Part shown: positions 1-11,800 of the stretch, in pieces
Layout of the letters: each line of letters starts with the position of its first letter
Position numbering within the stretch: position 1 is the first letter of the stretch
Assembly (NCBI GenBank): GCA_037127255.1
Contig: JBANSL010000010.1
Location: forward strand, 34,016,120-34,080,119
Direction of reading: 5' to 3'
DNA length: 64,000 bases
DNA from: Persicaria tinctoria
Taxonomy: Eukaryota > Streptophyta > Magnoliopsida > Caryophyllales > Polygonaceae
Notes under the pieces: generated by a model
The model's input: the letters and a program-made list of their open reading frames with translations, nothing else
Database searches by the model: none
What the model was told of the DNA's origin: nothing
Position numbers and translations under genes: made by a program

Positions 1-183
1 CCTCCTCGGCCTCCTGGCCCTCCGCCTCCTCTGGATCTCACCATTGATTCGCTATCAATCGATCTCGCTCCCAATTGAACCTCGGCCAATCGATCTCGCT
101 CCCAATTTGCAGATCCGCTCTCGTGTGGAGGAAGAAGAATTACGACGTCCAATTCGATGTTGTGTTTTATACACCCAACACAA

Positions 184-368
184 CAACGTCGAATTCGACG
201 TTGCCCTCCTCCTGGACCCTTCAACTTACAACGTCGAATTAGACGTTGTACACAGCTGGGCCCTTCAACTTACAACGTCTATTTTGACGTTGTGCACAGC
301 TGGGCCCTTCAACATACAACGTCTATTTTGACGTTGTACTTCAAATTACAACGTCCATTTAGACGTTG
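184..368. repeat. ACGT palindrome array 1 (about 44-bp period)
   Basis: Five copies of a 20-bp inverted-repeat unit, CAACGT-N8-ACGTTG, start at 184, 229, 273, 317 and 349, so the first four are 44-45 bp apart. The first (184-203) is a perfect palindrome; the others differ only in the central 8 bp. A degenerate sixth lies near 143. The spacers are also repeated (cccttcaacttaca, cacagctggg). The same motif returns at 1.9, 3.0, 7.8 and 8.6 kb, so it belongs to the MULE block. Confidence 0.9.
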
Positions 369-557
369 TATTTATCCTTTTTTTTTAATTCAACTGCAAA
401 TTAAATAAAATACATTATTTGGACATTTAGATCATTGAAATTAACTTGGCATATTTCATAAATAAATAAAATACATTATTTGCACAGTTTAGTTCGTTGC
501 AATTGAAAATTATAATACATATTGTACATAAAATACATAAATAAAACGATAATACAT

Positions 558-1198
558 AATTACTTATGAAACGATAAAATACATAAATGAAACGATAATA
601 CATTGGGAAAATGGCAGAAAACCACCCCTTAAATATGGGTCTTTGCAGAAAACCACCCCTTAAAAATGAAATTGCAGAAAACCACCCCTTAAACCCATTT
701 TGTAGGTAAATCACCACCCACAACCTTTTTCCCCGTTAGGTTTTCGTTTAAAACGGTGAAAATTCATTTTTACCCCTCGCTTTTAATGTTATTATATTGA
801 GAGAAAAATGTATGAATTGAAATAAATTAATAAAATATATTTATCTATCCTTTTTAATGTTATTTTGATAGAATAACATACCTTTTTCTCTCATTAAACG
901 AGATGGATAAATATATTTTTATTAATTTATTTCAATTCATACATTTTTCTCTCATTATAATAACATTAAAAGGGAGGGGTAAAATGACTTTTCACCGTTT
1001 TAAACGCCAACCTAACGGAAAAAAGGGTTGTGGGTGGCGATTTACCTACAAAATGGGTTTAAGGGGTGGTTTTCTGCAATTTCATTTTTAAGGGGTGGTT
1101 TTCTGCAAAGACCCATATTTAAGGGGTGGTTTTCTGCCATTTTACCTATATAAATTACTTATGAAACGATAAAATACATAAATGAAACGATAATACAT
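558..1198. repeat. 46-bp direct repeats flanking a foldback element
   Basis: Identical 46-bp copies occur at 558-603 and 1153-1198 (aattacttatgaaacgat...aatacat), immediately outside the foldback element. This is too long for a transposase target duplication. Either the element entered a local tandem repeat, or recombination duplicated the flank. Related acgataatacata words recur out to about 1290. Confidence 0.85.
605..1146. mobile_element. Foldback (MITE-like) element with about 245-bp inverted repeats
   Basis: The left arm (605-850) and right arm (900-1146) are inverted copies leaving a short loop. Each arm starts with GGG/TAAAATGGCAG and carries three internal repeats of the word aaaaccaccccttaaa, followed by a shared AT-rich stretch. 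No coding capacity is visible. The same arm words form the ends of the element at 43.4-44.7 kb, so this is a family. The 9 bp on either side do not match, so its superfamily is unproven; MULE-like foldback elements are the closest known type. Confidence 0.85.
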
Positions 1199-1362
1199 AT
1201 TGTACATACGCCGGTCTCCGGGCACCTCTATCTCTCAAAAACCCTTCCGACATAATCAAGAATGAAAACGATAATACATATATTACATACGCCGATCTCC
1301 GGTTACCCCCCCCCCCCTTGAAAATACATATATTACATACATTACATACGATAAGTCTACAA

Positions 1363-1851
1363 CTACGTGGTGTTAACGCCACTGGGTGTACAACTACCAA
1401 CAGACTCATCTAGATTGGTAGAAATGTCGATCTCTACGTCGATGAACGCGTACGATCGCAACCTATCGTTTCCCGGACCCACCACCCTCTCAATTACGTA
1501 CGTTGTAACTTCACGGATACAATGTCGACATACATCGGCGTAGAACGTGTCCAGCATTTCCGTAATGCCTCTGCCCATGTCGGATAGGTAGGCCTCTCGG
1601 TCGTTTGTATAAATCTCCGTGTCGTAGTGGCATCCGAACTCCCCCGCAACCGATCTCCTTGAGCCACTCTGACATGAGATGCGGAAAAGGCAGCATGGGA
1701 ATGCCCCGTTGTACCTCCGGTGTTGGCAGTTGCAGTCGCTGGCATCGGGTGGATAACGGTGTTTCGTCCCTCTAATCTGATAGTTGATCCCATCGGACGT
1801 TTCTGCGTCTTTTATGAAGTAAGTGGGAAGTCTACGATTGGGGGCCGCCAT
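1363..1851 (-). CDS. MULE-associated unknown protein, copy A
   Basis: Single-exon ORF of 162 aa in a family I do not recognise. Copies B (2491-2934) and C (7281-7730) are clearly related but highly diverged. Shared landmarks in order are an F-[IV]-K start, a DG pair, CNC[QK]H followed about 7 residues later by F-x-C, a later G/R-C, a YAF near the C-terminus, and the ending ESVGS. The CxC...C spacing recalls a degenerate SWIM zinc finger, but the final histidine is absent (the residues are PCCLF), so this is only an analogy. A TATA box (CTATAAAAGC on the minus strand, 1911-1920) lies about 60 nt upstream of the ATG, with an 80-bp palindrome-bearing repeat behind it. Open reading frames in all three copies argue for a real protein. 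Function unknown. Confidence 0.6.
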   Translation of the reverse strand: MAAPNRRLPTYFIKDAETSDGINYQIRGTKHRYPPDASDCNCQHRRYNGAFPCCLFRISCQSGSRRSVAGEFGCHYDTEIYTNDREAYLSDMGRGITEMLDTFYADVCRHCIREVTTYVIERVVGPGNDRLRSYAFIDVEIDISTNLDESVGSCTPSGVNTT

Positions 1852-1910
1852 TAGGTAGTAATAGTGTGGAAGGGTTTGTGGTGGATGGAGTGTGGGTGTG
1901 GGTGTGGGTG

Positions 1911-2180
1911 GCTTTTATAGGCACTTGAGCATACAACGTTTAATTCAACGTTGCAAGGGTTTTGCAACGTTGGATTGAACGTTGCAACGGGGAACCCTAG
2001 GGTTGGGGTTTAGCAACGTTTAATTCAACGTTGCAAGGGTTTTGCAACGTTGGATTGAACGTTGCAAAGGGGAACCCTAGGGTTGGGGTTTAGCAACGTT
2101 TAATTTAACGTTGTATAGGGTTAGCAACTTTTGATATAACGTTGCATAGGGTATAGCAACGTTGTATCCGACGTTCCCTG
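1911..2180 (-). promoter_or_regulatory. Copy A promoter: TATA box plus palindromic 80-bp tandem repeat
   Basis: Reading from the copy A start codon outward: TATA box at 1911-1920, then an 80-bp unit repeated from 1934, 2014 and (partly) 2094. Each unit holds two ACGT inverted repeats (caacgtttaattcaacgttg and caacgttggattgaacgttg) and the palindrome AACCCTAGGGTT, which contains a telo-box-like AACCCTA. Both kinds of element are known transcription-factor targets in plants (bZIP and telo-box binders); their action here is inference. Confidence 0.6.
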
Positions 2181-2490
2181 TTGACATTATTTTCTCAATT
2201 TCGAGTTAATTAAGCAGATATCTAGTGATTTTGAAAGTGAATATGAACATATAGAATTAATATTTCGATCTAACGAATATGAAAATAATTGATAGGTGAA
2301 TATTTCGATCTTCTTAGTAGGTTCCATTCAAGCGATTATGAAAACGATTCATATGTTAATGTTTCGAATTTTAATACCAAAGATAGTACATAGAGTTCAC
2401 ATCGAAGGCGCAGGTACCAAATATATAACTTATATAATAAATATAAAGTTCTAGCGCTAATCGAACGTTGAATACACAAAATCAATTGGA
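2181..2490. other. AT-rich spacer without recognisable feature
   Basis: AT-rich sequence between the copy A promoter and the 3' end of copy B. I see no ORF, terminal repeat or RNA signature in it. Confidence 0.5.
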
Positions 2491-2934
2491 TCAGTTGCTC
2501 CCAACAGACTCTGCAGGTCCCGCTGGTTGAATCTCAATCAGCGCTTGCTGGAACGCGTAAGTCTCCCTAGTTTGTTGGGCGGGCCGCGCTACTAAGTCAA
2601 CCACGTACTCGGCAATGCTGTTAATACGCGCCCGGCTCACATCGCAGTAAAGACTTTTGATGTTATCTTTTGTATGGGCCAACACGCGAGTATAGTACGA
2701 CTCGGGGTCTCGGTCGGACTCCATACAACGGAAATACACCTCCCTTGACATCTCAGACCGGCGATGACACTGCACAGAGAATAAACAGCATGGAAATAAA
2801 ATGCGATATTTCCTGTGCTTACAGTTGCAAATGTGACGTTCAGCCGGCACACTGTGCCTCGTCACTGTAATAGTGTAACGGGTGCCATCCGAGAACTCAA
2901 CTGTCTTCACGAAACTGTACGGAGTTGAAGGCAT
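2491..2934 (-). CDS. MULE-associated unknown protein, copy B
   Basis: 147-aa ORF, second member of the unknown family. The ATG at 2934 is chosen because it gives an N-terminus (MPSTPYSFVK) aligned with copy C (MASSPNSFVK). An in-frame upstream extension runs into promoter palindromes and is probably untranslated. It has CNCKH at about residues 38-42, a following FPCC, a YYTR motif that copy C shares, a TYAFQQ segment and the ESVGS ending. It is transcribed divergently from the transposase gene, sharing a gap of about 430 bp. A TATA-like CCATATAAGG (minus strand, 2997-3006) lies about 65 nt upstream. Transposon accessory proteins such as MURB are a formal analogy only; no similarity to MURB was seen. 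Confidence 0.6.
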   Translation of the reverse strand: MPSTPYSFVKTVEFSDGTRYTITVTRHSVPAERHICNCKHRKYRILFPCCLFSVQCHRRSEMSREVYFRCMESDRDPESYYTRVLAHTKDNIKSLYCDVSRARINSIAEYVVDLVARPAQQTRETYAFQQALIEIQPAGPAESVGSN

Positions 2935-2996
2935 GGTAGAGGGCTTTTTGGGTGTTGTGTGTTTGGTGTGATAAAGTGGAGGGGGGACCAACGGGG

Positions 2997-3286
2997 CCTT
3001 ATATGGTGATTGGGAACATCTCCCATTTACAACGTTGGAATGGACGTTGTAATTGGGAACGTTCCCAATTACAACGTCCATTCCAACGTTGTAAATGAGG
3101 ACGTTCCCAATTACAACGTCCATTCCAACGTTGTAAATGGGAGATGTTCCCAATTACCACGTCTGAATGGACGTTGTAATTGGGAATGGTCCCAATTACA
3201 ACGTCCGGTGTGACGTTATTACGACTGACACATAGAACGCGTAATTGACGTCATGTATGGTCCCCCTCCTTTGCCCTTATATATAC
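2997..3286. promoter_or_regulatory. Bidirectional promoter with five palindromes at 42-bp spacing
   Basis: The gap between copy B and the transposase holds five CAACGT-N8-ACGTTG type units starting at 3030, 3072, 3114, 3157 and 3199 (42, 42, 43, 42 bp apart). The array is bracketed by a TATA-like box for copy B (2997-3006, minus) and TATATATA for the transposase (3279-3286, plus). A 42-bp spacing equals about four turns of B-DNA, so all sites would face the same side of the helix. The smaller palindrome gggaacgttccc sits between two units. A role as binding site for the transposase or a host bZIP factor is inferred. Confidence 0.7.
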
Positions 3287-3367
3287 CTCCATCATCAGAC
3301 CGATTGAATGCATCCATTTACCTCACAATTCAAGACACTAGTTACTATTTCATTCGTAGATCTGAAA

Positions 3368-6300
3368 ATGTCATCCTCAGAAAGTGAAGAAGCGATGGAG
3401 GTTGTACGAGTCGCCCCCCCCCCCCCCCCCGCCCCCCCACGACGAAACAATTGCGTACCACAGGTAAAATCCAATGGATGTATTATCTGTCTCTATGTGT
3501 TTTTCCATTATTTAACCCGAAGTAAATATATACCCTTTAAGTAATATCAAGTGCATGTACGTTGTTATGCCTTCATGTAGTTTCGAGACTTTACATGTAC
3601 GTTTACCGACACTCGTACTTGGCAATCCCGGAACGAAATGGTCGACCATTTCAAGCAACTCGGCTTGAGGAACAACATGGTCTTAGTAATCAAGCGATCG
3701 TGGTCGACCGCTTCAAATCGACCGGGTGGCGTGTTGTTAGCGTGCGAGCAATATGGAGTGTTTCGCAGAAGGGGGAAGCAGATTCGCAGCACGCAGAGCA
3801 AACTAAGCAACTGCCCGTTCTCCTTACTCGGTCATGAGGGGGGGCCGAATATGTGGACGATGACCGTGCAAAATGGAACGCACAACCATGGGCTCCCTCA
3901 ACGATTGAAGGGTCATGCTTACGCGGGAAGAATGACACCAGGGGAGAAGAAAATGTGCAAGTGGATGAAAGACATAGGAACTCCGCCGAAGGCCATCTCG
4001 TACGGGCTACGACAAGCAGATGCGAATAGCGTCACCTCAGCGCGATCACTGGAGAACACCCTCAACAAGCTCGCCGTTGAAGAGAGAGGAAATCGAACGA
4101 TGACCCAAGATACCCTCCATCGTCTCCGAGAAAGGGGCTACTACTACGATTTCAGGAGGAGCCCAGACGATGACAATGTATTGAATGACCTTTTTCTCGC
4201 ACACCCGGATGGGATTCGTCTCTTGAACAAATACCCTTACGTCGTCGTCATGGATAGTACGTACAAGACAAACGCGTAAGTACTATATCCTACGTCTTAC
4301 TACATTTCTTCCATAAATAGTGATATGCTAATGTGCGTACGTTGCGGCACCGCGTCCACAGGTACAACGTCGCGCTGTGCGAGATAGTCGGCTTAACGCC
4401 AACGGGAAACAACTTTTGCATCGCATATGCCTTTATGGCCCACGAGGACACGGACACGTACACTTGGGTGCTCAACAACCTACGTGTTATTTTTCAGGGT
4501 AAGGTGCCCGATTCGATTATGACAGATCGAGAGCTGGGCCTTATGGCTGCACTTAGGGCCGTCTTCCCCGAGGTGCAACATCTACTGTGCTGGTTACATG
4601 TAACTCGCAACTGTGAAGACACCGCTTTGAAGATTACAAAAAAACTGGAATTATCAACTCTATTCAAGAATCAGGTGTGGGGTTTATTCTCGTCTTCGAC
4701 GGAGGAGTCGTTCGAGAGGCGGCGTAGATTTCTTCACGCCCATTGGCAGCCCTTTCCCGGGGTCATGGGGTATCTGGAAACAGTGTGGCTCATCCACCGG
4801 ACGAGCCTTGTCAGATGTTACACCGACCACGTCCTACACTTTGGAACGAGGACAGCCAATAGGTACGTATATCGTTTTCGTCGTTACCCTTGTCACTCTT
4901 TTACTACATTTCGACAGTCGTTCACCTCAAGCACATGATGCATTGTGTAGGGTTGAAGGCCAACATAAAGTGTTGAAGGAAGCATTACACTCGTCCACTG
5001 GTGATTTTTGTGTCGTGGTGGATGCAATTCATCGGGTGAACGAATGTCAGGTGCACGAGATCCAGACTGCGTTGGAGATTGATCGTTTCAAGTGGCCAAC
5101 TAACGCACACGAAGTCCCCTTATTCGATCAGATTAAGCACGTGGTTTCAAAGAAGTGTTTCGGCTTAACGCCAACGGGAAACAACTTTTGCATCGCATAT
5201 GCCTTTATGGCCCACGAGGACACGGACACGTACACTTGGGTGCTCAACAACCTACGTGTTATTTTTCAGGGTAAGGTGCCCGATTCGATTATGACAGATC
5301 GAGAGCTGGGCCTTATGGCTGCACTTAGGGCCGTCTTCCCCGAGGTGCAACATCTACTGTGCTGGTTACATGTAACTCGCAACTGTGAAGACACCGCTTT
5401 GAAGATTACAAAAAAACTGGAATTATCAACTCTATTCAAGAATCAGGTGTGGGGTTTATTCTCGTCTTCGACGGAGGAGTCGTTCGAGAGGCGGCGTAGA
5501 TTTCTTCACGCCCATTGGCAGCCCTTTCCCGGGGTCATGGGGTATCTGGAAACAGTGTGGCTCATCCACCGGACGAGCCTTGTCAGATGTTACACCGACC
5601 ACGTCCTACACTTTGGAACGAGGACAACCAATAGGTACGTATATCGTTTTCGTCGTTACCCTTGTCACTCTTTTACTACATTTCGACAGTCGTTCACCTC
5701 AAGCACATGATGCATTGTGTAGGGTTGAAGGCCAACATAAAGTGTTGAAGGAAGCATTACACTCGTCCACTGGTGATTTTTGTGTCGTGGTGGATGCAAT
5801 TCATCGGGTGAACGAATGTCAGGTGCACGAGATCCAGACTGCGTTGGAGATTGATCGTTTCAAGTGGCCAACTAACGCACACGAAGTCCCCTTATTCGAT
5901 CAGATTAAGCACGTGGTTTCAAAGAAGTGTTTCGAACTTCTCTACGGTCATTGGAGGAAAGTCGTCTCCAAAACAGTAGCTCCAGAGTGCGTCGACCGTC
6001 ATTGGAGAATATGCCATGGGATACCTTGTGTGCACGACGTTCAGCGTTTTGTTGATGAAGGAATTCAAATAACACCTGACGACATCCACCCATTTTGGAT
6101 GGATCTGACGTGGGATGAAGCGGACAATGCGATCTTACCCTATGCCAGGTCGGCTTCGTACACTGCATCTAATGAAGCTTGTGACCCTGATTTGCACCCA
6201 CCGGAGCGGGGTAGCATACGGGCAAAGGGCAGACCTAGAGGGAGGAGGAACCCGTGCAGAACGAATCCCTTGCGATCTGAGCAAAATCGGGCGAATTTTG

Positions 6301-6386
6301 AAAGGGAGGAAGCCAGAGCAGGTCGCCACGGTAGGGACCGACATTCCGAACATCCGTCCGACGCACAGTATTGGGGATTTAGCTAG
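3368..6386 (+). CDS. Mutator-like (MURA) transposase with internal duplication
   Basis: Exons inferred: 3368-3463, 3581-4275, 4362-4862, 4951-5634, 5723-6386, all with GT-AG introns and continuous frame. The ATG at 3368 is preferred over 3308 because the TATA box at 3279-3286 would place transcription start near or beyond 3308. The domains are an N-terminal DNA-binding region rich in basic residues and GTHNH, the DDE core (first Asp in VVMDSTYKTNA, second in SIMTDRELGLM, with LCWLHV as the C/H pair), and a C-terminal SWIM-like segment (C...ICHGIPCVHD, then IHPFW). Exons 3-5 contain a 772-bp duplication that adds 228 residues in frame after splicing, so the second Asp and the C/H motif occur twice while the first Asp occurs once. 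Activity is doubtful. A TAG at 6384-6386 separates it from the OTU domain, which lies in the same frame. Confidence 0.85.
4391..5934 (+). repeat. 772-bp direct tandem duplication inside the transposase
   Basis: Copy 1 is 4391-5162 and copy 2 is 5163-5934. I found one difference by eye, G at 4855 versus A at 5627 (Ala to Thr). Each copy contains the same 88-bp intron (4863-4950 and 5635-5722), leaving 684 coding bases, which preserves the frame. The copies share a 3-base tcg at the junctions. The near identity implies a very recent event, or an assembly duplication. Confidence 0.95.
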
Positions 6387-6398
6387 GGAGACAACAAT

Positions 6399-7078
6399 GT
6401 GGACCCTTTCATGTTCAGGCACATTGCGGCGGTCGTCAACACCGTGGGAGATGGTCACTGCGGATATCGAGCTATGGCGCAGCTGATGTTACGGCCAGGG
6501 GAGGCACGATTCGCAGATATGAAAGGGTTTTTGTGTAACCATCTGGAGCATAACGATCACCTTTACGCTGGTTGTTACATGGGAGGGTATTCGGTCCGGG
6601 AGTTTGTCGACCTACAGAGTTACTCCGGCAGAGTGGGAGGTGACCGGAGATACTGGATCGAGTTGCCTATCATGGGTCTTGTGTTCGCAACCGTCTACCA
6701 GGTACCCCTTGTCGTCTTATCTTGGCACATGCCCTTCACATGCCTCCCTATGTACACCGAACAACCAAATGGCGCACCTCAAGAGGCCATACTGGGCATG
6801 GCATGCATCGGCAACCAAGATCATTTCGCAGCGGTGAGTGTGATCTCACTCCAACCATAAATTAACTATCATTAATTACCCCACTTAACATTATAGTATA
6901 CTTTTTGCCCTTTGTGCAGATATGGTTACATCCCAACGCCCCTTTACCTCCTCCAGCGCATGAATGGACGGCACACCATCACCCGAGCGTCAACGGATGG
7001 GATACTCCCTTCCAAGACCAATTTGATAGATTTAGAGCTTTGCGGATTCAGGAAGGTCGCCCTCTACACCATGTTTAG
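6399..7078 (+). CDS. OTU-type cysteine protease domain downstream of MULE transposase
   Basis: Exons 6399-6833 and 6920-7078 (intron GTGAGT...GTGCAG). The catalytic loop GDGHCGYRAMA (about residues 17-27) matches the OTU signature with its nucleophile Cys, and NQDHFAAV near the end of exon 1 supplies the expected His. The C-terminal tail (IWLHPNAPLPPP...) is typical of plant MULE-OTU fusion proteins, which databases often misname. Only 12 nt separate this ATG from the transposase stop and both are in one frame, so the ancestral product was probably one fused polypeptide that now carries a nonsense codon. Translation as a separate protein is unproven. OTU enzymes remove ubiquitin-like modifiers; the substrate here is unknown. 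Confidence 0.8.
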
Positions 7079-7280
7079 GAGTCATGAAAGTTGGAATTAT
7101 TGTGGTCGTATTTGTTTGTTTTCTTTTCTATGAAGTTCAGAGTTGAAAGTTGAATGTTTGTTATTATGAAGACGTAGAAACAATATAAAAACAATCGGTC
7201 GACCAAAACAAACATCAGTTGGCCCCATATCTAATTTTACAAACGGGTTTTAATGTTACATTTCAACAAGGGTTGTTGTA

Positions 7281-7730
7281 TTAAACGTAACAACTACCGA
7301 CCGACTCTTCAGGAATGTTTGGGTATATACTAATCTGCACCTGTTGGAACGCATATGTCGTCATCAGATCTTGGGCAGGGCGCACTATTGTATCAACTGC
7401 ATACTCTGCTACTCTGCGACAGCGCGACGGAGACATGTCGTCGTACAAAACGACCAGGATATCCGTTATCTGCTCAATCATCCGTGTATAGTACGATGCA
7501 GAATCGTCGGCACACTCTTGACACCCGAACTGCAACTGTGTTGACATATCCAGGATACGATAAACCTGCACAGAAAGTAGATTGCATCGAAAATAATGTG
7601 TATAGTTCATATGCTTGCAGTTGCAAGCATCCTCCTTAGGCGGACGAGGGTGTCTCCCCACTTCAACAACGAAATACGTGCCATCATTGAACTTGGCATA
7701 TTTGACAAAGGAATTTGGGCTTGATGCCAT
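7281..7730 (-). CDS. MULE-associated unknown protein, copy C
   Basis: 149-aa ORF, third member of the unknown family, lying 3' of the OTU gene on the opposite strand. It begins MASSPNSFVK, has CNCKH at about residues 38-42 with F-x-C following, then YYTR, RPAQ, TYAFQQ and the ESVGSC ending. It is closer to copy B than to copy A. It is divergent to the small + strand gene at 7947 and shares with it a gap holding four ACGT inverted repeats. The ORF is intact, but there is no direct evidence of expression. Confidence 0.6.
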   Translation of the reverse strand: MASSPNSFVKYAKFNDGTYFVVEVGRHPRPPKEDACNCKHMNYTHYFRCNLLSVQVYRILDMSTQLQFGCQECADDSASYYTRMIEQITDILVVLYDDMSPSRCRRVAEYAVDTIVRPAQDLMTTYAFQQVQISIYPNIPEESVGSCYV

Positions 7731-7757
7731 TACGTGTGTTTCGTGTATGCCAATAAC

Positions 7758-7896
7758 AAAACGTCCAATTAAACGTTGTAACAACGTCCAATTAAACGTT
7801 GCTTCAACGTTTAATGTAACGTTTGTTAGCAACGTCATATTTGGCGTTGTATAAGGAGGCCTCACAAAAAACGAGAAAGGATTTCTCACTATAAAT
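7758..7896. promoter_or_regulatory. Second divergent promoter region with ACGT inverted repeats
   Basis: Four CAACGT/ACGTTG inverted repeats start near 7758, 7782, 7805 and 7830 (23-25 bp apart) between copy C and the small gene at 7947. A TATA box (TATAAAT, 7890-7896) serves the + side, 51 nt before that ATG. A weaker TTATACAAC faces copy C. The layout mirrors the 2997-3286 promoter. Confidence 0.55.
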
Positions 7897-7946
7897 TACG
7901 CCATGCTAGGGTCGAAATTACAACATCTCGTTCGACAGAAGAAGAG

Positions 7947-8221
7947 ATGGCGGCCGGTAACACACCAAGACCCTTCTTCTCAGTCACAGGGAGTGGCCCT
8001 AGGGATTTTTTCTGGTGGGTAGAAGACGTCTCGTTCACAGAAATACTGGTAAGCCCCCTTCGGTCTCACATCCGATTTACAAAAGACCCAACTCATTAAG
8101 TAGATCTTGACTTCTGCAGCCTCTGCCTTCCAACTTCGAGGAAGAATACGGGTTGTGGGGCGTCGAAAGAATAACGCTGACTAATGGGCCAGGGAGGAGA
8201 GGCACCATCATCCGGGTTTGA
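7947..8221 (+). CDS. Small two-exon gene of unknown function in the MULE block
   Basis: Exons 7947-8048 and 8120-8221 joined by a good GT-AG intron (GTAAGC...CTGCAG) encode about 67 aa beginning MAAGNTPRPFFSVTGSG and containing FFWWVEDVSF and EEEYGLWGVERITL. I do not recognise the family. Just past the stop a different frame reads YLGNARFRVVVVPPENV and then an acidic tail to a stop near 8321, so the real protein may be longer and this copy frameshifted. The clean intron, the TATA box at 7890 and the divergent pairing with copy C support a gene. Confidence 0.45.
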
Positions 8222-8562
8222 TGTTTAGCTACTTAGGCAACGCTCGCTTCCGGGTCGTCGTAGTGCCGCCGGAGAATGTTTCACCATCAGAGGAAGAGAA
8301 CAACAATGATTTCCGCTGAGGTGTGACATGGCAGCGACCCGGAAAAACTTATTTACTAAGTTATTTATGTTGTAATCGTCTATCATCAATATGAAAAATG
8401 AGGCAGTCTATAAGTTTTCATGTAAACAGATGTGACTTCCCTGAAATAACCACAAATCATATTTGAAAACCCTCCGCGAGGGGCAAAACGCTCCAACAAA
8501 ATAAAAGATGGAGCATCGCACTAAGTTTTCGCCAACATCCTACCCGACGAGGCCCACTTTAG

Positions 8563-8706
8563 CAACGTCGGATTAGACGTTGCTAAAGTGTCCGACCCGC
8601 CCAAATCCCTTCAATTCACAACGTTGTGTAGGACAAAAGACAACGTCGAAATGAACGTTGTTGCAACGTGAAATCGAACGTTTCTACAACGTCATATTCG
8701 ACGTTT
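8563..8706. repeat. ACGT palindrome cluster upstream of CHLD
   Basis: Inverted repeats at 8563-8582, 8641-8660, 8664-8683 and 8687-8706 follow the CAACGT-N8-ACGTTG/T pattern, with a half-palindrome near 8620. The nearest lies about 140 bp before the CHLD start codon. This is probably the edge of the transposon block; I could not define its exact terminus. Confidence 0.75.
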
Positions 8707-8844
8707 CATTAACAGCGCTAATCGTGGATTTGCGGTGTACATAGGGCGAAGAGATTACGGGGGCCCACTAGTGAGAGTATTCAGATAAGTGAACCGAAGA
8801 ATCCAACCAAGTTTCGCTCCCACACGCGCGCTCACTGCTCGACC

Positions 8845-11800
8845 ATGGTGGCGGCTCCGTCGATAACCCCATCTCCGGCGTCCTTTTCTCTCTCCTCCAT
8901 AGCTTCACCTTCTTCCTCTAAGCCTCTCGCTCTTTTCTTCCATGGATCAAAACTTTCTAGGTCTAGGAAATCCTCAATTCGCCAACCAATTCGTGCTGCT
9001 GCCACTCTCAATTCCACCAATGGCGCTCTCGTCGCCGAGCCCAACAAACCTAAGGACGATTCCTATGGTCGCCAGTTCTTCCCGTTAGCAGCCGTTGTTG
9101 GACAGGTTCTCTTTCTCTCGTCCCTCTCTATCTCTCGAGGTGGACCTCGCGGTTTGTGATTTGTGAATGCCTAACTTTCGTGAATTGTGATTTGTTTTTT
9201 GCAGTTCAACTTAATTATGTGAATTTTGCTCAAGTATAAGTGAATTAAGCGTTTGATTAGGCAAATGTCATGGTTTTTGATGACTAATTGGCAAGCAGTT
9301 TTTGACAAAGATGATATTCAGTATTCATCTGACTCTGTTGAATAGGAATGTAGGCTCTACTGTAGCAAAAATGGCGGAAGTGATTTTTTTTATATGTCTG
9401 GTTTCTTTTCACTGGTACTGATAATCTGAAACTTGTATGCTATAGGATGCTATTAAAACTGCTCTTTTGCTTGGGGCCATTGATCGTGAGATTGGAGGGA
9501 TCGCCATCTCTGGGAAGCGAGGAACAGCTAAGACTGTGATGGCACGTGGCTTGCATGCCATTCTTCCTCCCATTGAAGTGGTTGAGCGCTCAGTTGCGAA
9601 TGCAGATCCACGATGTCCAGAAGAGTATGATTTAAATTGATAATTGCAGATCACCTTGGATGTTCTAGTCATTCACCAAAAAAAAGGATTTGTTTATGTT
9701 TGCTACCAAAAAGATTTGTTGTTGAAGTCAGCAGTGAAGATTTTACCCTATGATAATTAACCACTTCATTATATTCATTGACATATCAGAGTTCCTGTAA
9801 GGAAAATACTTGTTCTTCCTGTGAAGGAATAATGTGGATACCTGATTTACATTATGTTGTGTCATTATTCAGTATCATTGTTATTTATGTTTCCCTTCCC
9901 CCCCCCCCCCCCCCCCCTAAAACAAAGGACTGATTATGGTTTCTGAAGGTGGGAAGATGGATTAGCAGATCGTGCTGGTTATGACGCCTCTGGTAATATC
10001 AGAACCAGGATAATAAAATCGCCTTTTGTTCAGGTACATTTCAAAATGGCTCAACTGTTGTACATCTTTTCACAGTTTTTCATGATTTCTTAGTGACCTA
10101 AATCAATATGTTGCAGATTCCTCTTGGTGTTACAGAGGACAGGCTTATTGGTTCAGTTGACGTTGAAGAATCCGTAAAATCAGGAACTACAGTTTTTCAA
10201 CCAGGACTTCTTGCTGAAGCTCACAGGGGTGTATTATATGTCGATGATATTAATCTTCTGGATGAGGGTATTTGTAATCTTCTTCTCAATGTTCTGACTG
10301 AGGGTGTTAATACTATTGAAAGGGAAGGAATTAGTTTTCGGCACCCCTGCAAGCCCCTTCTAATTGTCACCTATAATCCTGAAGAGGGTGCAGTTCGTGA
10401 GCATTTACTGGACCGCATTGCAATTAACCTAAGGTATCCTTGTACTCTAATGCAGATATCATGGAGTATACCATTCTATCATCCATTCATTATGAGTTTT
10501 ATTTGTTTATGTATTGAGTTGCTTCAGTTTCTTCATCTTCTTCTAGTATTATATCACGGGCTTTATGTAAGTTTCATAAGTTATGTTCTTCCCCCTTTTG
10601 CGTCCAAATAGCAAACTGATGGTGTTCTTTGCTGATACAAGAATATTTCTTGCAGTGCAGATCTTCCAATGAGTTTTGAAGATCGTGTTGCAGCTGTTGG
10701 AATTGCAACACAGTTTCAGGAAGATACCAGTGGAGTTTATAAAATGATTGAGGAAGAAATGGAAGTTGCAAAGACACAAGTAAGATGCTATTAGTCATCT
10801 GCTTGGTATCTTTTTTGTTATTGTGCATGTGTTGCCTATTTCTGACTGACAAATTTAACATTGATACACTATATACATTCAGATCATTTTGGCTAGGGAG
10901 TATCTGAAGGATGTCGCTATAAGCAAAGAGCAAATTAAATACTTGGTCATAGAAGCAATGCGCGGCGGTTGCCAGGTTCAGGATTTTTTATTTTTTTTCC
11001 TCCCCTATAAGCGGATTTTTTTTTTTACAAGTGTTGCATCTGAGGCTGATTGAAGCAATTGTGGTTTTGTAGCTGAAGCACTGATTCAGTTACTACAAAG
11101 AAATTAGTTCGGGTTTATGAAAAATAGTTTTGCTATACCTTTGTGTTAAAGTGTCTACAATGCTTTTCTCTTTTCCAACTCCCAGTAGCTATATGGAACA
11201 TCTCCTGTGCTTTGTCATGTTTCTTTGGTATGATATACTCCGTATGTTTCTAGATAATATCCCATCATTTGCTGTGAGTCAAGATAACGTTATCCAAATG
11301 TCTATTTCAGGGTCATAGAGCCGAACTGTATGCTGCTCGTGTTGCCAAGTGCTTAGCTGCTCTAGAAGGACGTGAGAAAGTCTATGTGGATGACCTAAAG
11401 AAAGCTGTTAAGTATTTATTTTATGCATCATACTCGATCAACGGGCTTTACAATTGAGTGTCATGAGGCTTGTAGGAAATGGAGTTAATTGCTTTTTTTT
11501 CTATTGCTTCTCAAAGGACGGCTGTTATATTAGGCTTCTTATATTTCATTTCTTACAGGTTGAACTAGTAATTCTTCCTCGTTCTATCATCAACGACTCT
11601 CCACCAGATCAACAGAACCAGCAGCCTCCACCCCCACCACCTCCCCAACAAAATCAAGAATCATCCGAGGAACAAGAAGAAGAGGATGAACAAGAGGTTT
11701 TTCTTTTGCAAGTTTATAGTTGAACCTGCAACCTGTTTGAGAGTTTAGTTTTAGTACAAAGCATGCTCATCGTGGGGACAACTTTTTTTACAGGATGAGA

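Follow-up and report, generated by a model that had tools for sequence, protein, structure and literature searches.

Introduction

The described systems closest to the element reported here are the VANDAL elements of Arabidopsis, in which an accessory protein (VANC21, VANC6) encoded by a Mutator-like element (MULE) occurs together with a short, tandemly repeated motif found in non-coding regions of that element, and in which both the motif arrays and the VANC protein diverge between families, as described in the available portions of PMC5735166 and PMC10398659. The Abermu elements provide a second comparison: an accessory ORF, ORFR, lies opposite to the transposase strand and diverges faster than the transposase (available portion of PMC9168764). 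The MUDR, MUDRAVI2 and VANDAL groups include a plant mobile domain (PMD) gene and SWIM-type transposases; the PMD gene runs antisense in the majority of MUDR members and frequently does so in MUDRAVI2 (available portion of PMC6446971). The PMD domain is also present in MAIL1 and MAIN of Arabidopsis, both involved in silencing, and the authors of PMC5418596 speculate, in the part available, that MULEs use captured PMDs against silencing.

Here, a stretch of 64,000 nucleotides from Persicaria tinctoria (hereafter the window) was analysed; it contains most of a MULE that resembles each of these systems and departs from each. VANC carries DUF1985 and DUF287, whereas the accessory proteins of the present element (termed O) have no Pfam match to either; the VANC21 motif is a 9-mer, whereas a palindrome is present here; and four O paralogues occur in one element, whereas several paralogues per element are not described in the portions of PMC5735166 and PMC10398659 considered. 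In the corresponding portion of PMC9168764, a single ORFR per Abermu element is described and palindrome arrays are not mentioned. Similarly, neither an OTU part nor the O family is mentioned in that of PMC6446971, and MAIL1 and MAIN are host genes, whereas the PMD gene here belongs to an element with several genes. The comparison of the O family with ORFR and maize MuDR mudrB, and that of the element with the MUDR, MUDRAVI2 and VANDAL groups, are by description.

The element and its copies

The element, a plant MULE some 13.2 kb long that is repeated in the genome, occupies positions 1-8749 of the window (forward strand) and has its left 4.5 kb outside it. The right end lies at 8746/8749, where blastn alignments stop in 15 of 20 other genomic copies, and the left end maps to about 34011638 of G000:C10, roughly 4.48 kb ahead of the window, on the basis of a boundary common to a second copy and the TIR-like sequence CCCTATATACACCGCAAAT. 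Copy C58 has the short terminal inverted repeat CCCTATATACACCGC on both sides; the window copy has it intact on the left and with one mismatch on the right. An earlier note on this DNA gave coordinates, 1363-7730, that span only part of the element.

The target site duplications of MULEs are 8-11 bp in length. By eye, no exact target site duplication, which measures 9-10 bp in several MULE groups (available portion of PMC6446971), is seen in the flanks of the window copy or C58. A 9-mer common to window positions 65/96 and 8814 was rejected as a target duplication because the left end lies elsewhere, and the array at 160-375 was rejected as the left end of the element since the element continues; this array is upstream of the PMD gene.

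The 20 copies that were fetched were chosen by their match to O2 and all come from the same genome. Gene order and strand are kept among them, except for extra out-of-order fragments in L061 and L069. Transposase exons are present in 18 of the 20 and absent from L056 and L075; in L056, O1, O2 and the arrays are present and no transposase exon was found. Within this genome, the proposal of the earlier note that the O family travels with this MULE is supported.

The O protein family

Three minus-strand ORFs, O1 (1363-1851, 162 aa), O2 (2491-2934, 147 aa) and O3 (7281-7730, 149 aa), are intact at the positions first assigned to them and encode diverged versions of one cysteine-rich protein, as had been claimed for a shared family: the BLASTP identities are 35% for O1/O2 (E 5e-27), 47% for O2/O3 (E 4e-45) and 33% for O1/O3 (E 1e-25). 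O1 is found in 17 of the 20 copies, O2 has at least 151 matches within its own genome, and the database relatives of O3 (P0004-P0007) show 69-89% identity. A fourth paralogue, O4, lies outside the window in the left 4.5 kb of the element. The invariant columns of the three-way alignment of O1-O3, in which the motifs named by the earlier note are present, include C36-N37-C38, H40, C49, C70, Y126-A-F and E142-S-V-G-S; in a family alignment of nine sequences (A4), C36, C38, C49 and C70 are retained in all nine and H40 in eight. The conserved cysteines suggest that the O proteins may bind zinc.

In agreement with the expectation that the family has no named counterpart, O1-O3 yield no known-domain match in Pfam, NCBIfam or PDB sequences, and no Pfam match to the VANC domains DUF1985 or DUF287 is obtained for O1-O4, P0004, P0005 or P0008. 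Listings of open-licence papers on MULEs with OTU or accessory ORFs contain no description of the family. Two AlphaFold models of family members (pLDDT 77 and 76), in both of which the Cys loop is the low-confidence part, give no clear match to PDB folds, SWIM or treble-clef included. The pI is below 7 in seven of eight family proteins (5.5 for O1 and 5.3 for O3), O2 alone being above this value (8.7); a mostly acidic pI is unusual for a DNA binder and counts against a binding function.

The O proteins are under purifying selection, as the earlier note had suggested, and the evidence, all from the same genome, is best for O2. In a simulation of neutral drift to the O1-O3 distances, the chance of no stop is 0.001-0.0055; in all three O pairs, conservation is higher at the first two codon positions than at the third. 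The dN/dS of O2 is 0.30-0.36 against four divergent copies, L072-L075 (Fisher P 1e-5 to 6e-5), and the signal is weaker for O1 (0.52) and O3 (0.46); the O2 values are higher among the divergent copies themselves (0.41-0.64) and, on few changes, against L069 (0.94). Values above 1, again on few changes, are obtained for O1 (2.04 against L069; 3.45 against L071, over 61 codons) and for the transposase (Tn_ex2, 1.54 against L069; Tn_ex3, 1.31 against L061). In L075, O1 (0.68) has two stops and O3 (0.71) has one; the O3 comparison with L071 is not significant (P 0.08), and O4 has one stop in C58. O3 values against L061, L069, L072 and C58 (46-48% identity) were rejected because the best match there is the O2 paralogue, and L074 (47%, two stops) was also left out. 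Of the three outcomes that the earlier note named as counting against its proposal, namely a known-domain match, a dN/dS near 1 across copies and absence of the family near other MULE-OTU transposases, none was obtained, the last two being examined within this genome.

The transposase, PMD and G4 genes

The ORFs had been described as flanking a MURA-OTU gene. The transposase part of this description holds: a MULE transposase gene with a C-terminal OTU-like part lies at 3368-6836 on the plus strand (PF10551, E 9.7e-18, above the cut-off), with exon 1 at about 3368-3463 and exon 2 at about 3581-4276, the exon limits being judged visually from the reading frames and from sequences resembling splice sites. 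The C-terminal part carries motifs resembling Cys and His boxes (GDGHCGYR...DHFAAV), on which the label OTU-like is based; it has no Pfam match, and no OTU protein is among its two PDB sequence matches. The window copy is damaged by a 772-bp tandem duplication (4388-5159 / 5160-5931) within the later exons and by an in-frame stop before the OTU-like part (about 6384-6386). The same codon is open in 14 of 14 other copies compared. Other copies read the transposase and the OTU-like part in one frame, and the dN/dS of the latter is 0.18 against L072.

A probable start of an antisense PMD gene lies at 1-44 on the minus strand, where an ATG at 44 is accompanied by a TATA box and the body lies left of the window; a PF10536 match (E 1.1e-33) is located at L076:510-1541:-, in the part of the element outside the window, and this body and the ATG at 44 probably belong to one gene. 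G4, a small two-exon ORF at 7947-8221 on the plus strand (exons 7947-8048 and 8120-8221, by eye), has at least one exon in 11 of the 20 copies; no homologue of it was found, and its protein may continue in another frame after a frameshift in the window copy. The earlier note did not include G4, the palindrome arrays, O4 or the PMD gene, the last two of which lie outside the window.

The palindrome arrays

An 18-bp palindrome, AACGT-N8-ACGTT, has 22 exact sites in positions 1-8730 and none in the remaining 55 kb, a small sample from which alone the frequency outside the element is taken; with one mismatch allowed, the counts are 25 and 2. A first-order Markov model predicts 0.02 sites at N8, and each of the other spacings from 0 to 20 between half-sites gives at most five. 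Host sequence, a magnesium-chelatase gene for example, is present in the 55 kb that lack exact sites.

No palindrome of the 22 falls inside the coding segments compared. Unstranded arrays are found upstream of the PMD gene (five palindromes, 185-367), upstream of O1 (six, 1935-2175), in the divergent promoter region of O2 and the transposase (four, 3031-3217), between O3 and G4 (three, 7760-7823) and at the right end of the element (four, 8564-8705), and arrays occur at both element ends as well as in promoters. All seven recognised genes have at least three palindromes 30-325 bp upstream of the ATG; at least three within 300 bp upstream are seen for all seven, compared with 10.3% of random positions and strands. 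The seven are not independent because two divergent gene pairs share arrays. A TATA-like box lies between the nearest palindrome and the ATG in six of the seven genes. Among the divergent copies, L073 has three exact palindromes and L075 has four.

The half-sites are conserved above the surrounding array. In the O2/Tn array of copies L071-L073, 116 of 120 half-site positions are identical (97%) versus 379 of 497 (76%) in the rest of the array (Fisher 1.7e-8), despite a CpG in each half-site. In the O1 spacer, the half-sites exceed the rest of the array in six of six copies; they are below the sequence outside the array in L061 (95% versus 97%) and L069 (93% versus 97%).

The outer base pair is complementary in 16 of the 22 window palindromes (permutation P 0.007) and in 14 of 20 when only distinct palindromes are counted (P 0.017); complementarity of the inner pair falls short of significance (P 0.09 over 22 sites and 0.08 over 20). 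The outer pair is A:T in 53/53 sites of the PMD array (left of O1) and in 63/63 of the O2/Tn array, including 9/9 in divergent copies; G:C is the commonest in the O1 array (46/79), and the O3/G4 and right-end arrays are mixed. Array specificity of the outer pair is therefore seen in two arrays and, in part, in another, the sites within an array being non-independent because of tandem re-amplification.

Discussion

The presence of the same palindrome before all seven recognised genes suggests a switchboard carried by the element itself, which perhaps serves escape from plant silencing. The explanation that we favour, with roughly even confidence, is that this large multi-gene MULE has its own transcriptional control, in which O1-O4 would bind the palindromes and keep the promoters active. 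The O proteins would be element-encoded regulators, probably zinc-stabilised, that bind as dimers to the palindrome TRCAACGTYNAATTNRACGTTGYA upstream of the genes and at the element ends. Their binding would jointly switch on the O genes, the transposase-OTU gene, PMD and G4 and keep them unsilenced, and the paralogues may have diverged in target, some reading arrays with an outer symmetric A:T and others arrays with an outer symmetric G:C. The O proteins would thus work like Arabidopsis VANC, which binds its motif and lowers DNA methylation, without VANC domains. The fuller version is a multi-channel promoter code encoded by the element itself, in which four paralogous dimeric regulators read different classes of the one palindrome and co-ordinate and de-silence the seven genes, as an anti-silencing system of separate origin from VANC, perhaps with a new fold; it is put forward tentatively, as less likely than not. 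Transposase binding would likewise account for the arrays at the element ends.

That the palindromes are instead transposase sites, used in end synapsis and promoter autoregulation, with the O proteins as partners or structural accessories that do not bind them, appears somewhat unlikely. Such sites would account for arrays at both ends plus promoters, as long Mutator TIRs carry transposase-binding sites and promoters (available portion of PMC3310237), and the acidity of O1 and O3 and the mixed outer pair in the O3/G4 and right-end arrays also agree with them. However, they leave unexplained why internal promoters hold about as many palindromes as the ends and why four diverged O paralogues exist, and one protein would be expected to give one consensus, whereas the outer pairs differ between the O1 and O2/Tn arrays. 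This difference between arrays equally weighs against sites for a host transcription factor (for example, a dimeric one recognising an ACG inverted repeat) that drives all the genes while the O proteins act elsewhere, which we regard as distinctly unlikely. Host factors with palindromic ACG-type sites exist, and a position directly upstream of TATA boxes is ordinary enhancer placement, but no exact palindrome occurs in the remaining 55 kb, host sequence included, albeit a small sample.

If the O proteins do bind the palindromes, they may act as repressors through which the element limits its own expression and regulates its copy number. A shared operator beside TATA boxes suits a repressor equally well, and L056 retains O1, O2 and the arrays with no transposase exon found; nevertheless, four selected paralogues in a highly repeated element would be more easily explained as helping its spread, and repression seems quite improbable. 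The idea that the locus is a functionless collection of tandem repeats and ordinary captured pieces of host genes, which draws on the capture of host sequences by MULEs (available portion of PMC9168764) and on some close-copy dN/dS values near or above 1 from few changes, is hardly credible because the dN/dS of O2 is well under 1, gene order and strand are kept, and the half-sites are conserved above the surrounding array.

Among plant transposon proteins, only VANC of Arabidopsis appears in the literature searched as countering silencing through binding to specific sequences. TnpA of Spm, on which that literature yielded no paper, may be another. If the favoured explanation, in which the O proteins bind the palindromes and activate the element, is true, the present MULE would be a second system, one without VANC domains and with a candidate 22-24 bp palindrome before each recognised gene, and the arms race of transposons with DNA methylation would become testable in another lineage. 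Additionally, the O paralogues, as DNA binders whose target classes might be separable, could then be of use for sequence-directed demethylation or activation in plants.

A protein family of four paralogues

The three minus-strand ORFs of the earlier note, O1 (1363..1851), O2 (2491..2934) and O3 (7281..7730), are correctly placed with open frames, and they are indeed versions of one protein, being homologous across almost their full length with pairwise identities of 33-47% (in pairwise protein comparison, O1/O2 35%, E 5e-27; O2/O3 47%, E 4e-45; O1/O3 33%, E 1e-25). The Cys/His motif, YAF and ESVGS are kept in all three, and the invariant columns of the three-sequence alignment include CNC, H40, C49, C70, YAF and ESVGS. 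A family profile detects no further member in the 64-kb window (best other match E 0.58), and a fourth paralogue, O4, lies to its left (-4089 to -3670, negative positions being left of the window; plus strand; profile E 1.3e-25 for one sequence), with 26% identity to O2.

That the pattern belongs to no named family is upheld by searches of Pfam (zero accepted matches; two rows with E <0.1, both far below cut-off), NCBIfam (zero matches) and PDB sequences (zero matches). A three-sequence profile search of ~5.8 billion proteins returned five relatives, all without names and encoded on contigs of 589-1477 bases (source 'ena'), and a second round with eight sequences against the same proteins returned no others. 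Four of the five (P0004-P0007) are O3-type, with 69-89% identity to O3, which, against 47% between O3 and O2 within one element, indicates that the O3/O2 duplication predates their split from O3; the fifth, P0008, is a distant relative (31-36% identity to O1-O3). P30, C36, C38, C49, L51, C70, Y80 and D98 are invariant in a nine-sequence alignment including O4, and across O2 copies C36, H40 and C70 are kept in 21/21 and C38 and C49 in 20/21. Two structure models (pLDDT 77 and 76) agree on the secondary structure, which begins with two strands, the Cys loop and a second pair of strands and continues with two long helices and a single strand; neither model clearly matches a solved fold.

The element and its copies

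With 150 of 2021 candidates scored, O2 has at least 151 matches in its own 1.68-Gb genome, a plant genome judging from its PMD and magnesium-chelatase genes; many of these matches are full-length with an open frame. Twenty copies, chosen over a range of 100% to 73% identity to O2, were compared. When oriented alike, they have one gene order, O1(-) O2(-) transposase(+) OTU part(+) O3(-) G4(+), except that two, L061 and L069, hold additional fragments out of place; the strands of the listed gene matches are as expected in the 20 copies. O1 is found in 17/20, O2 in 20/20 (by choice), O3 in 14/20 and G4 in 11/20, all lower bounds, as some fetched stretches stop short of gene positions. A transposase exon is present in 18/20 and the OTU part in 14/20 of these O2-chosen copies of one genome, in agreement with the proposal that the family travels with this MULE. 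G4 is a small two-exon ORF (7947..8221, plus strand; region 7947-8330) with no homologue found in the protein database.

The right end lies at 8746 or 8749 in 15/20 copies, and the left end precedes the window by ~4.48 kb, at the point from which the window copy and another copy, C58, align. Both copies carry CCCTATATACACCGC at the left end, and the right end is its reverse complement, with one mismatch in the window copy. From the shared left boundary and the right end, the element is ~13.2 kb long with short TIRs; no target duplication is demonstrable at its ends. The left part holds O4, also present in L060 (97%) and C58 (98%, one stop), and a minus-strand plant-mobile-domain (PMD) gene (PF10536, E 1.1e-33). 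One copy, L056 (G000:C3:73911067-73921000), has O1, O2, arrays and the right end, with no transposase, OTU, O3 or G4 found in the fetched stretch, and is a derivative that may supply only accessory proteins.

Within the window transposase (3368..6836, plus strand), a 772-bp tandem duplication occupies 4388-5931; the unit is single in 17/17 fetched copies with that exon. Together with a stop ahead of the OTU part, the duplication suggests that the window copy makes no full transposase. Additionally, an inverted-repeat insertion (599-1152) with 177-bp arms, 93% complementary, and GCAGAAAACCACCCCTTAAA repeats lies in the left spacer, flanked by ~46-bp direct repeats of a repeat that was seemingly tandem beforehand.

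Selection on the proteins

The suggested selection on the O protein is supported by the open frames, a codon-position bias and O2 dN/dS below 1 against divergent copies. When neutral drift is simulated to the observed O1-O3 distances, the frame is still open in 0.1-0.55% of runs, and the third codon position is the least conserved in 3/3 O pairs. Rather than being near 1, dN/dS of O2 is 0.30, 0.33, 0.36 and 0.32 against four divergent copies of this genome, L072, L073, L074 and L075 (Fisher P 6e-5, 3e-5, 5e-5 and 1e-5), whose O2 has zero stops and a dS to the window copy of 0.31-0.45; among themselves, the four give 0.41-0.64 for O2. O1 yields 0.52 against L072 (P 0.009) and 0.68 against L075 (2 stops), and O3 yields 0.46 against L073 (P 0.011; 3 stops), 0.47 against L071 (P 0.08) and 0.71 against L075 (1 stop). 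Transposase parts are similar to the O genes (0.34-0.82 against L072 and L073), and the OTU part is lower (0.18 against L072, P 4e-7; 0.33 against L073). Values from close copies are scattered, some >1, with few changes behind them.

A spaced palindrome upstream of the genes

Repeat analysis reveals many CAACGT...ACGTTG units. The exact palindrome AACGT-N8-ACGTT occurs 22 times in 1-8730 and 0 times in the other 55 kb of the window (25 and 2 with one mismatch allowed), against 0.02 sites expected from a first-order Markov model, and the other spacings in the range 0 to 20 yield 0-5 sites each. The whole window copy, including its left part, has 29. The listed coding segments contain 0/22. The symmetry extends into the flanks (C at -1 in 21/22, G at +18 in 17/22) around an AATT-rich centre, with the extended consensus TRCAACGTYNAATTNRACGTTGYA; the outer pair is complementary in 16/22 window sites (permutation P 0.007; P 0.017 for 20 distinct sites) and the inner pair in 14/22 (P 0.09). 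The O2/transposase array also contains, at 3004-3159, two inverted repeats, one of 37 nt with perfect arms and one of 74 nt with arms matching at 95%, which, if transcribed, could form a hairpin or be a source of small RNA.

In 7/7 genes (PMD, O1, O2, transposase, O3, G4 and O4), the stretch 30-325 bp ahead of the ATG contains at least three palindromes; these represent five independent arrays, as two gene pairs share one array each. At least three sites lie within 300 bp upstream at 10.3% of random positions and strands in the element, so the placement is far from chance. A TATA-like box stands between palindromes and ATG in 6/7 genes, at -57 to -127; none is found for O3 by the pattern used. 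The right-end array is followed by no gene of the element. Beyond the element, 10108-10608 matches TIGR02442 (E 1.5e-51) and TIGR02031 (E 2.3e-46), partially and below cut-off, and probably belongs to a magnesium-chelatase subunit gene; if the ORF at 8845, ~100 bp past the element, is its start, the right-end array lies in its promoter region.

In the O2/transposase spacer of L071-L073, singled out from ten aligned copies, the window base is kept at 116/120 half-site positions and at 379/497 other in-array positions (Fisher 1.7e-8, with sites within one array non-independent); outside the array, identity is 95%, 83% and 85%, respectively. L069 points in the same direction (half-sites 36/40, rest 103/155); of the remaining alignments, five are near-identical to the window and L061 is without most of the array. 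For the O1 spacer, compared in six copies, identity is 93-98% in half-sites and 74-94% elsewhere in the array; outside the array it is 97% in L061 and L069, equal to or above the half-sites there. CpG decays fast where methylated, and the half-sites hold CpG yet are retained, which argues for use of the palindromes.

Among the fetched copies, with 23 unassignable sites excluded, the outer pair is A:T in 53/53 sites of the PMD array left of O1 and in 63/63 of the O2/transposase array, including 9/9 from divergent copies with different bases at the eight inner positions. The O1 array has mostly G:C (46/79), symmetric A:T being absent from its listed classes. The O3/G4 array (A:T in 13/39 sites of near copies, 1/3 of divergent ones) and the right-end array (G:C in 25/58 and 2/5) are mixed.

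A candidate binder

The symmetric palindrome and its constant 8-bp spacing point to a dimer. The candidate binders encoded by the element are O1-O4, the transposase, PMD and G4. Judging from co-occurrence, we favour the O family, which is the sole set of paralogues among these, whose conserved Cys fit a putative structural zinc site, and alongside which three arrays prefer an outer pair that is not shared by all three.

VANC21, an Arabidopsis VANDAL anti-silencing protein whose motif is arranged in tandem repeats, has its peaks in introns, between genes and in the non-coding termini (PMC5735166); the palindromes of this element, upstream of each recognised gene, in non-coding parts and at both ends, resemble such VANC-type targets. 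Other reports describe an antisense PMD gene in MULEs (PMC6446971), an accessory ORF opposite to the transposase strand (PMC9168764) and a MULE-captured PMD (PMC5418596) as known kinds.

MULEs carrying OTU are also a known kind. A search of the open-licence literature found no description of the O family, its fourfold presence or the element-wide palindrome. We read the element as a MULE with putative accessory regulators, a known kind, whose set of four O paralogues and palindromes appear to be new within that literature.
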